From positions 1 to 21,293 of the IMG/VR virus record IMGVR_UViG_3300035698_006107: DNA of 21,293 bases. One strand, given 5' to 3'. Under the pieces are notes generated by a model that did not search any database, was not told where the DNA came from, and was given only the letters and a program-made list of their open reading frames with translations. The stretch is from a virus. A program made the translations under genes and the position numbers. This document shows positions 6,115-10,319 of the stretch, one piece after another. Within the stretch, counting starts at the first letter, position 1; each line of letters starts with the position of its first letter.

Positions 6115-6356
6115 TGGCTGTTAACGTACCCACCATCACCGATGCTAAGGTGATAGCAAAGCGTACCGGAGCCGCTGGTGTTATCATCATCGCATTTGGG
6201 CCGAAAGCGTACCCCTTGAAGACATGTGGCTCCAGCTATGGTAGCACCAAAAAGCTGTGTGTACACTTTGGTAAAGCGATGAAAAAGATAATGGAAGACT
6301 ATTGGAACTGGAAACCCAAACCACCAATTGACGTAGGAGACGTTTATGACAGTTGA
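6114..6356 (+). CDS. Hypothetical protein (80 aa)
   Basis: This 80-residue protein is coupled at both ends: its ATG shares a base with the upstream stop, and its last 11 bases overlap the sigma-factor gene. The N-terminal half is Ala/Val/Ile-rich (TGAAGVIIIAFG near residues 18-29) and the C-terminal part is basic and aromatic (KAMKKIMEDYWNWKPKPP). No motif is recognised. Its position directly before the sigma factor may make it a co-expressed partner, which is inference from order only. Confidence 0.5.
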   Translation: MAVNVPTITDAKVIAKRTGAAGVIIIAFGPKAYPLKTCGSSYGSTKKLCVHFGKAMKKIMEDYWNWKPKPPIDVGDVYDS

Positions 6357-6975
6357 ACAACTCCACACGGAACACGGGAAGTACATCTTGACTTGTCTCA
6401 AGCTGTACGGCGTACCAGCGCAGGAGTGCCAAGACGTCCGACAGGATCTCTACCTCAGGCTGTTAGAGGTGGACAAGGTTATCCACGACGACCACGTCAA
6501 GGGCTTCTGCTCCAAGATCGCACGGGACATGGCCTACGACTGGTTACGCAAACAGAGCCGCACACCGTTAATGGAAGCCGTCATTACCATCGACGACGAA
6601 GGTTTTGAGGGTATACACCCGGTTCTTACTGCTCAGACTATGGCACGCTGGGAGTCTATCGTCAGCAACGCCAACGTGGAGCGCATCGCTCAGGCGTTAC
6701 AATTGGCTTTGATCTACGAAGTTGACCCCGGCATCACAGCGCACGAAGTGATAGCAGACATCCTATACGGGTTGAACATGACGCAGATCGGAACTAAACA
6801 CGGGTTTTCCAAAGCCACAGTGTCCCGGTGGATGAAAGAGTGGTACGCATGGATCAACGCAAAACTCCCCCCACGTGTAACCATTACGCCGATCCTCTGC
6901 TCGTACTGCGGTATTGAAAAAGCACTGGGACACGCCGTGGGTTGTCCGTTTTTAACCTTCATCAAGGAAGACTAA
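6346..6975 (+). CDS. ECF-like RNA polymerase sigma factor with C-terminal zinc knuckle
   Basis: This 209-residue protein carries a recognisable sigma-70 region 2 in residues about 7-72. ECQDVRQDLYLRLLE is followed by GFCSKIARDMAYDWLRKQSR, the helix pair that binds the core enzyme and the -10 element. Residues about 142-168 form a helix-turn-helix resembling region 4 (MTQIGTKHGFSKATVSRWMKEW), expected to bind a -35 element. A tail with Cys185, Cys188, His196 and Cys200 (C-X2-C-X7-H-X3-C) is not part of standard ECF sigmas. An AGGAGA box precedes the ATG. It could redirect host polymerase to phage promoters; the hairpin-rich region downstream is a plausible regulated target, but that link is inference. 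A sigma-like DNA-binding regulator is the alternative. Confidence 0.7.
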   Translation: MTVEQLHTEHGKYILTCLKLYGVPAQECQDVRQDLYLRLLEVDKVIHDDHVKGFCSKIARDMAYDWLRKQSRTPLMEAVITIDDEGFEGIHPVLTAQTMARWESIVSNANVERIAQALQLALIYEVDPGITAHEVIADILYGLNMTQIGTKHGFSKATVSRWMKEWYAWINAKLPPRVTITPILCSYCGIEKALGHAVGCPFLTFIKED

Positions 6976-8276: not shown

Positions 8277-8360
8277 CTTTAGGACTGCCACGCTGGCATA
8301 CGGGGAAGACAGTTAAGGCGTGCGGGCCACCCCGGATAGCGTGCGTACCGTCAGTACCTC

Positions 8361-8473
8361 TATACAAGGTACGTACGGTACTGACGGTACTGGCGGTCAG
8401 AAGGCCATAACGGAGGCGTGTTTTAATGTACTTTGAACCGCCAGTACCGTCAGTACCGTCAGTACCTTGTATA
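8361..8473. repeat. Large inverted repeat (36-bp arms) built on GTACCGTCA iterons
   Basis: Arms 8361-8396 and 8438-8473 are reverse complements at 34 of 36 positions. The outer 12 bp (TATACAAGGTAC) and inner 22 bp are perfect, with a 2-base mismatch between them, around a 41-base loop. The arms are made of a repeated 9-mer, CAGTACCGT, tandem at 8442-8459. The 14-mer GTACCGTCAGTACC occurs at 8345-8358, 8444-8457 and 8453-8466 on +, and inverted at 8377-8390, so alternative hairpins (for example 8345-8358 with 8377-8390) are possible. Iterons plus dyad symmetry next to an AT-rich TATATATAG run (8470-8478) is the look of an origin or repressor/initiator binding array. Confidence 0.85.
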
Positions 8474-8540
8474 TATAGAATATACAGGAAGACGGGGTAC
8501 GAAAAGGTAGGGTTAACGGAGGGCGTTCACTGTTGAGTAG

Positions 8541-8578
8541 TATGCAACGGCTTGCATATATTGGGAGCAAAAAGCTCC
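8541..8578. repeat. Two adjacent small hairpins
   Basis: TATGCAA (8541-8547) and TTGCATA (8552-8558) form a perfect 7-bp stem with a CGGC loop. Six bases later GGAGC (8564-8568) and GCTCC (8574-8578) form a 5-bp stem with an AAAAA loop. Neither is followed by a T-run, so they are not intrinsic terminators. They belong to the hairpin field described for the whole non-coding region. Confidence 0.6.
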
Positions 8579-8616
8579 AGAGTGTCTATTTGATATATTG
8601 GCTTCCCCCTATACCA

Positions 8617-8659
8617 AAGCAAACCACGTGCCAATTTCGAACAGCAAATCCCGTGCCAA
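8617..8659 (+). repeat. Two half-copies of the GCAAA-CGTGCCAA stem-loop arm
   Basis: AAGCAAACCACGTGCCAA (8617-8634) and AGCAAATCCCGTGCCAA (8643-8659) are direct repeats of the right arm of the stem-loops at 8950-8990 and 9390-9429. A good left arm is lacking; only a weak ATTGGC at about 8598-8603 could pair with the first. They may be decayed copies or single protein-binding half sites. Confidence 0.65.
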
Positions 8660-8853
8660 CTCGAAACTGTGTATTTAGGGGTACACAGCAAAGACTTTGT
8701 ATCTACACAGTCTACACTGTGCGTGGAAGTTACAAGGAAGCCACGTCGTTGGCCTTCCTTGCTCCGCGTACTATACTCATATCCACGAGATATCTGAGGC
8801 TTACCGTCGTAGCCCCGGACCCCACCCGATGGACACTTCGAGCCATGCCCAAT

Positions 8854-8871
8854 CCAGCGTCGTAACGCTGG
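8854..8871. repeat. Perfect 7-bp hairpin with CGTA loop
   Basis: CCAGCGT (8854-8860) pairs with ACGCTGG (8865-8871) around the 4-base loop CGTA. It sits seven bases upstream of the left terminal repeat of the 142-bp element that follows and has no T-run. Confidence 0.6.
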
Positions 8872-8908
8872 CGGACGATTATAACGCCACCGCGCATATC
8901 TTACCGAG

Positions 8909-8944
8909 TTGGCACGCTGTTTGCTATAGCAATTCTCGTGCCAA
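8909..8944. repeat. Stem-loop family copy 1
   Basis: TTGGCACG (8909-8916) pairs with CGTGCCAA (8937-8944). Inside, after an unpaired 4-base step on each side, TTGCTA and TAGCAA (8921-8932) form a second perfect palindrome. The same two-tier design occurs in the next stem-loop and in one about 450 bases downstream. Confidence 0.8.
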
Positions 8945-8949
8945 GTTCA

Positions 8950-8990
8950 AATTGGCATGTCGTTTGCTAAAAGCAAATCCCGTGCCAATT
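8950..8990. repeat. Stem-loop family copy 2
   Basis: AATTGGCATG (8950-8959) pairs with CGTGCCAATT (8981-8990), with one G-T pair. The apical stem is TTTGCT/AGCAAA (8963-8968 with 8972-8977), separated from the basal stem by TCG and TCC. It lies five bases after copy 1. Confidence 0.8.
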
Positions 8991-9241
8991 GAGTGTCAAC
9001 TGCGCGGTGGCGTTATAATAGTGCAAATAGTCTGGTATTTGCATTCCGAAATACACGTACAACCGAGTTGGAGACTTTCTGGGAAGCTTCTCCTTGGCCT
9101 TGCTTTATCATGGTGGGGTGTTCAGGGCTATCTGTCTATTTGAGGACCGGGACGGGCTTCCGGGGAACTCCGGGAGGGTTCGACAGGTCCGGGAAGGCCC
9201 GCTCGTACTCGGACTTCTCAGAACCGCATATGCAGGGGAAC

Positions 9242-9263
9242 ATCCCTAATCTGTGGGATTTTT
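9242..9263 (+). terminator. Possible weak intrinsic terminator
   Basis: ATCCC (9242-9246) and GGGAT (9255-9259) form a short stem with an 8-base loop, followed directly by TTTTT (9259-9263). The stem is only 5 bp, so termination would be weak. It could end a transcript entering from the hairpin region before the downstream gene cluster. Confidence 0.35.
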
Positions 9264-9389
9264 GCCTATACCTTTGCACCTTGCGACACTGCTCAGGTGT
9301 GCATTTAGGCGTCCCGGAGGGTCCACGCGGGATTATGGGAGGCTCCCCATACTATCCGGATATCCTCTGAGAGGGTCTTTGCGGCCTTC

Positions 9390-9429
9390 TTGGCACGTCG
9401 TTTGCTCTTAAGAGCAACTCTCGTGCCAA
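9390..9429. repeat. Stem-loop family copy 3
   Basis: TTGGCACG (9390-9397) pairs with CGTGCCAA (9422-9429). The apical stem is a perfect 16-bp palindrome, TTGCTCTTAAGAGCAA (9402-9417), so the top is longer than in the two upstream copies while remaining self-complementary. The basal 8-bp stem is identical to copy 1, and the unpaired step is again four bases on each side (TCGT and CTCT). Confidence 0.8.
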
Positions 9430-9604
9430 AAGAGAGGTGTTTGTGAAACGCGGAGCCGTCCCGTACGGATAAACATGTAGAAACAGGACGGCCAACTTCG
9501 TAAGGCCCACGCCAACCAAAGTCAATATCGACCTCTTGCGAGCGATGGAGCAGAAGCAACTTTCTTGTTTACTACACACCGCACACCAACCCAAGGATGA
9601 TAGC

Positions 9605-9847
9605 ATGGAACCAACGAAAAAGTTTTGGAGGTCCGTCGGAAGACGTGGACCGATCAACACACAAAGACGACCAGATGTTAGTATCCGCGAAATTGCCTAC
9701 CAGCACCCGTTTTCGGTTTATCACTCGCTACTCGCGGGCACCAACTGGATCGCGGAATTAGACATATCCCCCACAGCAAAGAAGCTCACACGGTTACAAG
9801 GTCGCGACTTCCGCTTGGCCGCGCAAGGAGTGCTTGATGACGCATAA
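9605..9847 (+). CDS. Small basic hypothetical protein (80 aa)
   Basis: The ATG at 9605 has an AAGGA box at 9593-9597 seven bases upstream and is preferred over in-frame upstream starts, which lack one. The product begins MEPTKKFWRSVGRRG and is Arg-rich, with a helix-forming stretch at VSIREIAYQHPFSVYHSLLAG. No domain is recognised. It is the first gene after the non-coding region, and its end overlaps the next start (9837). Confidence 0.55.
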   Translation: MEPTKKFWRSVGRRGPINTQRRPDVSIREIAYQHPFSVYHSLLAGTNWIAELDISPTAKKLTRLQGRDFRLAAQGVLDDA

Positions 9848-10207: not shown

Positions 10208-10214
10208 ACACATG

Positions 10215-10282
10215 CAGGGTGTAGCTTAATTGGTAAACCGCCGTTTGCAAGCGGAAATCCGAGTTCGACCCTCGGCACCTGG
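10215..10282 (+). tRNA. tRNA-like sequence with irregular D and anticodon arms (anticodon unresolved)
   Basis: The T arm is perfect: CCGAG, loop TTCGACC, CTCGG (about 10259-10275). The acceptor strand CAGGGTG (10215-10221) pairs with CACCTGG (10276-10282) at six of seven positions, one of them G-T. TA-GCTT-AATTGGTA follows at the D-arm position with the invariant GG. The span is only 68 bases, the D stem closes poorly, and the anticodon stem is CCGC/GCGG around GTTTGCA plus a C-A mismatch. This allows TTG (Gln) by standard position, or TGC/GCA by resemblance. No CCA is encoded. It may be a decayed or unusual phage tRNA; a covariance-model scan would decide. Confidence 0.5.
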
Positions 10283-10319
10283 CATAAACATGGGTGGTTG
10301 TTGCGTAACAAGCTGGATG

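Follow-up and report, generated by a model that had tools for sequence, protein, structure and literature searches.

The window analysed here is a stretch of 21,293 nucleotides of viral DNA (IMG/VR record IMGVR_UViG_3300035698_006107). Between credible genes of its open reading frame list lies a gene-free gap of 1328 bp, as a sequence-only reading had pointed out. The window has no other large gap, the runner-up measuring about 240 bp. No Pfam family was found for six of the longer open reading frames inside the gap, and PHROGs returned for the frames there one match only, at chance level (E 0.064). Protein-coding frames were ruled out for want of a credible family in either collection. Rfam matched nothing in the gap, and the sole call of a tRNA search falls outside it. 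A tRNA-like but degenerate call at 10214-10284, just upstream of GroES, has an incomplete anticodon.

The dyad richness that had been described for the gap was borne out and exceeds chance. Seven perfect dyads (7-bp arms, spacer up to 14) were counted, compared with a mean of 0.85 and a maximum of 3 in shuffles and with 0-3 in other windows of 1328 bp. When the sigma-54 sites described below and the long repeats were masked, five more unrelated dyads were left versus 0.56 expected, a level attained by none of 200 shuffles. RNA folding better than that of dinucleotide shuffles, a check that the earlier reading had proposed, was found at 8870-9030 (z = -11.3), 8277-8900 (z = -8.8) and 9370-9450 (z = -2.9) and failed to appear at 9030-9390 (z = -1.07, not significant). 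The dyads are real but uneven along the gap. A replication origin had been among the functions suggested: iteron-like repeats, which might mark one, are present (Table 1) and recur in no other locus compared, the window region holds no exact DnaA box, and the skew profile of the window has no clean switch.

The most regular dyads of the gap are one repeated 17-bp asymmetric element, TTGGCACGNNNNTTGCT, which the earlier reading had overlooked. In the repeat analysis this element, TTGGCACG-N4-TTGCT, matched the -24/-12 consensus of sigma-54 (RpoN), and the window sites have the TGGCAYR-N4-TTGC sequence and GG-N10-GC spacing of a sigma-54 promoter element. The sequence TGGCACGNNNNTTGCW occurs in seven exact copies and one with a single mismatch (TGGCATG), all inside 820 bp, and has no copy elsewhere in the 21-kb window. 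A PSSM derived from 29 experimentally mapped intergenic sigma-54 sites of Salmonella (PMC3844500) was applied to the window. The eight gap sites were the top eight of the window, scoring 15.6-21.0 (next best 12.3). The 29 known Salmonella sites themselves score 16.0-23.2, and shuffles gave 0.28 hits per window at 15 or above. Three facing pairs account for six of the eight sites and the other two stand in tandem; it is mostly this facing of sites in pairs that gives the gap its hairpin look. Three sites are directed toward plus-strand genes and five toward the side without a minus-strand gene. The gap is very probably a cluster of predicted sites for the host sigma-54 RNA polymerase holoenzyme, and the host of the window phage presumably has rpoN.

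Table 1. Coordinates of the gap, its predicted sites and repeats, the adjoining gene, and the comparable gap of a cultured Vibrio phage (positions in the window unless another record is named)
Feature	Sequence	Position	Strand	Remarks
Gene-free region with predicted sigma-54 site cluster		8277..9604	.	
Iteron-like repeats	unit AGTACCGTC; copies ACCGTCAGTACC	8345..8473	.	form 48-bp inverted repeat
Extra dyad	TATGCAACGGCTTGCATA	8541..8558	.	left after masking; possible regulator site
Predicted sigma-54 site	TGGCACGTGGTTTGCT	8618..8633	-	exact consensus; PSSM 19.5; tandem with 8643..8658
Predicted sigma-54 site	TGGCACGGGATTTGCT	8643..8658	-	PSSM 15.6; tandem with 8618..8633
Extra dyad	CTGTGTATTTAGGGGTACACAG	8667..8688	.	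left after masking
Extra dyad	AAGGAAGCCACGTCGTTGGCCTTCCTT	8734..8760	.	left after masking
Extra dyad	CCAGCGTCGTAACGCTGG	8854..8871	.	left after masking
51-bp inverted repeat	outer arms TTATAACGCCACCGCGCA / TGCGCGGTGGCGTTATAA	8875..9022	.	brackets two facing sigma-54 pairs
Predicted sigma-54 site	TGGCACGCTGTTTGCT	8910..8925	+	PSSM 21.0; faces 8928..8943
Predicted sigma-54 site	TGGCACGAGAATTGCT	8928..8943	-	PSSM 20.0; facing partner of 8910..8925
Predicted sigma-54 site	TGGCATGTCGTTTGCT	8953..8968	+	PSSM 18.4; faces 8972..8987
Predicted sigma-54 site	TGGCACGGGATTTGCT	8972..8987	-	PSSM 20.8; facing partner of 8953..8968
Extra dyad	GCAAATAGTCTGGTATTTGC	9023..9042	.	left after masking
Predicted sigma-54 site	TGGCACGTCGTTTGCT	9391..9406	+	PSSM 18.9; toward downstream gene block; faces 9413..9428
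Predicted sigma-54 site	TGGCACGAGAGTTGCT	9413..9428	-	PSSM 18.6; facing partner of 9391..9406
First downstream gene		9605..9847	+	ortholog in L026 also just downstream of a sigma-54 array
VCPH gene-free gap		L440 956-2229 = VCPH 116455-117728		five sigma-54, three DnaA, two LexA, one CRP and one ArgR site

The gene at 569-1642 encodes a relative of adenylosuccinate synthetase of the PurZ type (PHROG 1211; GSEGKG instead of GDEGKG). Since PurZ is encoded, A may be replaced by 2-aminoadenine in the phage genome, and this replacement could alter protein binding at the sigma-54 sites. The product of 6346-6975 has weak matches to sigma-70 region 2 and to HTH domains and looks like a phage ECF-type sigma factor.

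The position of the gap was compared in relatives. Terminase searches yielded 20 of them, few being long enough to span the gap. The relative L026 (60% terminase identity) has an ortholog of the first downstream gene at 2167-2352 and, just upstream of it at 1497-1986, eight sigma-54-like sites embedded in DNA otherwise unlike that of the window. Six of these eight are forward, toward the late-gene block, and two pairs of the palindrome TGTTCAAWATTTGAACA lie upstream of the array (817-870 and 1338-1378). In this syntenic relative, as in many other arrays, the sites have mostly one orientation and form no hairpins. Two further relatives, L023 and L027, have the downstream gene and no array upstream of it; in G004, the record from which L023 comes, three perfect sites stand singly at other places, positioned as promoters would be. 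When cultured close relatives of the window were sought by terminase or PurZ, matches were distant or absent. The earlier expectations that the gap has a function and that it may be a regulatory array are both strengthened by these data, as the sigma-54 array keeps its position in a distant relative and similar arrays recur in many unrelated phages.

A stretch of 800 bp with at least four sites was counted as an array, and at least 138 viral loci, the window included, have arrays of 4-10 sites. When grouped by the lack of any shared nearby protein above 40% identity, these loci form at least about 55 groups. Because they had been picked by motif, a separate motif-independent set of 80 loci (680 kb) was assembled through the terminase of one family, in which the arrays lie 1.3-1.6 kb upstream of the terminase gene. 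In this set the N4 spacer gave 103 matches, spacers N1-N3 and N5-N8 gave 0-1, and the reversed pattern gave 3. Flanking positions outside the search pattern also fit the sigma-54 consensus, with T or C at a frequency of 0.80 before TGGCA and A or T at 0.88 after TTGC. Start-to-start distances in the array loci were 18-22 bp for facing, 20-25 and 30-35 bp for back-to-back and 24-29 bp for tandem sites. The two back-to-back classes, about 10 bp apart, hint at helical phasing of bound proteins. In one locus (L008 16-160) the array has expanded recently, a facing pair recurring in tandem at 54-bp intervals.

Looser versions of the facing arrangement, and back-to-back and tandem ones, occur in viral contigs. 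Strict facing pairs were found in 12 viral stretches, whereas 257 Gb of bacterial genomes yielded three, of which one sits inside a gene. A prophage or bacterial origin was ruled out by this near absence from bacterial genomes. The motif is unlikely to belong to some phage protein, because the same element occurs in about 55 groups that have no nearby protein in common. Nor are the arrays a general phage feature: twelve cultured phages, relatives by terminase or PurZ, held two sites in total versus four control matches. RpoN and the activator domain PF00158 were absent from 52 records, almost all with arrays and many of them fragments, and a phage-encoded sigma-54 or activator was accordingly not found in this largely fragmentary material. 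The arrays lie in divergent intergenic regions in 17 of 33 groups and between convergent genes in 8 of 33.

Sites for other host regulators accompany the arrays. With palindromes counted on both strands in array and background sets alike, densities per 100 kb near arrays versus elsewhere in the same loci were 19.9 versus 1.2 for DnaA boxes (permuted controls about 1), 4.1 versus 0.1 for Fur, 5.5 versus 0.2 for NtrC and 6.9 versus 0 for LexA. Several NtrC enhancer sequences, TGCACCANNNTGGTGCA, stand beside sigma-54 arrays in L140 (2193-2260) and L144 (228-245), two uncultured phages with a Caulobacter-phage-like terminase. An enhancer search in the window gave only dyads without an assigned regulator. 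Strict NtrC sites are confined to one family, which ruled out a common enhancer across families.

Such sites are also found in cultured phages, among them phages of Pseudomonas and Vibrio, hosts that have RpoN. In the Vibrio harveyi phage VCPH, a gap of 1273 bp holds 12 textbook sites belonging to five regulators, where 0.03 would be expected. In the Otagovirus UNO-G1W1, six of eight sigma-54 sites lie in the terminal repeats (control 0). Across seven Otagoviruses the facing pair is conserved while the spacers vary, and one partner is often sub-consensus. Since the flanking genes converge on the repeat, no annotated gene is driven by the Otagovirus repeat sites. Some of the repeats also contain a parS-like site, TGTTTCACGTGGAACA, and boxes resembling Fur sites, seen near the conserved facing pair in L432 (1-526) and other Otagovirus loci (L433, L434 and L436). 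In the Pseudomonas aeruginosa phage PaoP5, a 629-bp gap holds three sigma-54 sites, two of which form a facing pair, and My1 and 4MG have Fur sites. In a comparison check, the injection stop region of T5 was found to hold DnaA and LexA sites, and T5 has no sigma-54 sites. A perfect LexA box, CTGTATAAATATACAG, lies in that region at 9411-9426 (L443 3412-3427), and the same 16-mer recurs in VCPH (L440 1841).

The gap had also been described as composed largely of hairpins and possibly a source of abundant structured RNA. Although parts of it do fold better than shuffles, the stretch 9030-9390 does not, and the pairing itself speaks against both descriptions. The 4-nt spacers of 214 distinct facing pairs were alike at 1.06 of 4 positions versus 1.29 in shuffles (sd 0.06), and only two of the 214 pairs had fully identical spacers. 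As the spacers are less complementary than chance, the hairpins are not under selection; the spacer data contradict an RNA or cruciform function and fit protein sites. Neither conserved nor covarying pairing was found, the hairpin layout is missing in the syntenic relative, and Rfam gave no match. An RNA gene or hairpin array was rejected on these grounds, and structured RNA is a very improbable account of the gap. The earlier observation of a gene-free, dyad-rich stretch is confirmed, and its interpretation is partly supported.

What was computed is the sequence identity of the sites, their clustering and spread across phages, the synteny in the relative and the co-location with other host-regulator sites; from these we infer binding in the cell, titration and a benefit to the phage. 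The best reading, about evenly poised between right and wrong, is that the gap serves as a DNA decoy, or sponge, for the host sigma-54 holoenzyme. Each genome copy would offer eight near-consensus predicted sites, mostly in facing pairs a few bp apart. The sigma-54 holoenzyme would form stable closed complexes there, which stay silent unless an activator is present. Many phage genome copies, each with eight sites, might then draw the holoenzyme from host promoters, depriving those for nitrogen, motility, pili and stress. The remaining unrelated dyads of the gap might likewise act as decoys, for other regulators of the host, and the site starting at 9391 could also be a genuine promoter that drives the downstream block. 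A decoy is favored by the facing layout, near-consensus strength and number of the sites, and by those sites that have no gene to drive and the sites of other regulators alongside. The pair geometry and the Otagovirus repeats are in line with many strong sites that do not serve transcription: two holoenzymes on a facing pair a few bp apart would be unable to both start transcription. It has been reported that many bound sigma-54 sites in E. coli lie inside genes (PMC4591121).

The sites could instead be working promoters in a sigma-54-dependent regulatory hub, with facing sites firing in both directions. This account is rather doubtful as a whole, including its proposed targets (the downstream late block, perhaps antisense or small RNAs) and its proposed drivers, host enhancer-binding proteins through which the phage would read nitrogen, motility and stress states of the host. 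Several observations count for it and against a decoy: the preference of arrays for divergent intergenic regions, as promoters would show, the single perfect sites in promoter-like positions in G004, and the NtrC enhancers at the L140 array, as in a real NtrC/sigma-54 promoter, and at L144. The forward bias of the L026 array also weighs on this side, together with its paired upstream dyads, and clusters of CtrA sites, which occupy terminal repeats or 1-kb gaps of phages, do bind CtrA and regulate phage genes (PMC9437464). The near absence of sites from the twelve cultured phages first checked likewise counts against a decoy. Working promoters, however, fit poorly with facing and strictly alternating layouts with few bp between sites, with as many as 10 sites per array and with five window sites that have no gene to drive. 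The convergent contexts in 8 of 33 groups and in the Otagovirus repeats, where the facing pair sits between gene blocks running toward it, also disfavor a promoter role. The missing activator domain points the same way, as weak evidence because many of the 52 records are fragments. A mixture of decoy and hub is possible. An unlikely alternative is a structural role: host proteins bound to the cluster would act as roadblocks or landmarks, much as has been suggested for the injection stop signal of T5, and the cluster would serve to protect DNA ends or to control DNA entry, packaging or the start of replication. Arrays upstream of terminase genes in many loci, several cultured cases in terminal repeats and the iteron-like repeats of the window are in line with it, as is the T5 region with its DnaA boxes, palindromes (PMC13250531) and the LexA box found here. 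Yet the same sigma-54 element occurs in unrelated phages and also far from terminase, the window contig has no known termini, and the choice of sigma-54 would be left unexplained.

Clusters of host-regulator sites in phages have precedents. Dense CtrA sites have been described in pili- and flagellotropic phages of Alphaproteobacteria (phiCbk-like, vB_BsubS-Delta), lying in terminal repeats or intergenic gaps of about 1 kb and having several independent origins (PMC9437464). The present arrays are alike in these respects, with high-scoring host-regulator sites concentrated in a non-coding gap or terminal repeat. The CtrA clusters serve one regulator and prefer promoter regions, and their binding and regulation have been shown (PMC9437464), whereas the present arrays concern a sigma factor, have facing or alternating pairs, include sites of other regulators in some phages and are predicted from sequence. 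For CtrA sites 'lytic deferment' has been proposed, a comparable idea of a phage reading the state of its host. In T5, the injection stop region of the left terminal repeat is about 1 kb of non-coding, dyad-rich DNA with DnaA boxes (PMC13250531). The window gap resembles it in length and dyads, but T5 is without sigma-54 sites and the gap is not known to adjoin a genome end. Synthetic DNA sponges likewise titrate a regulator with arrays of sites (PMC7686491); they are engineered, whereas the window array is natural. Bacterial sigma-54 promoters have the same sequence and strict spacing as the window sites, but unlike the phage arrays they almost never form strict facing pairs. Phage clusters of CtrA sites (PMC9437464) and DnaA boxes in T5 (PMC13250531) were thus already known. 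The literature searched, in which subscription papers were mostly outside coverage, described neither phages with sigma-54 site arrays nor a natural phage array for a sigma factor. Facing-pair sigma-54 arrays, their breadth and the mixed panels of host-regulator sites therefore appear to be new.

It is quite possible, and proposed here tentatively, that in many unrelated lineages lytic phages have non-coding 'regulator traps' with which they disarm or retune host transcription by protein-free titration. These would be clusters of consensus sites for sigma-54 and, in some phages, for NtrC, Fur, LexA, DnaA, CRP, ArgR or ParB, and some would lie in terminal repeats at genome ends. The question is directly testable in cultured examples: PaoP5 (PAO1), VCPH (Vibrio harveyi), phiPsa374 and UNO-G1W1 (Pseudomonas) and T5 (E. 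coli). Sigma-54 site arrays could also help to predict rpoN in the hosts of uncultured phages. If the regulatory reading is true, sigma-54 would join CtrA, LexA and Spo0A as a host signal read by phages. If the decoy reading is true, large 'empty' dyad-rich gaps and terminal repeats would gain a meaning, perhaps including the T5 injection stop region, and phages would reprogram the host by means of bare sites in their DNA, much as anti-sigma factors do but without a protein.
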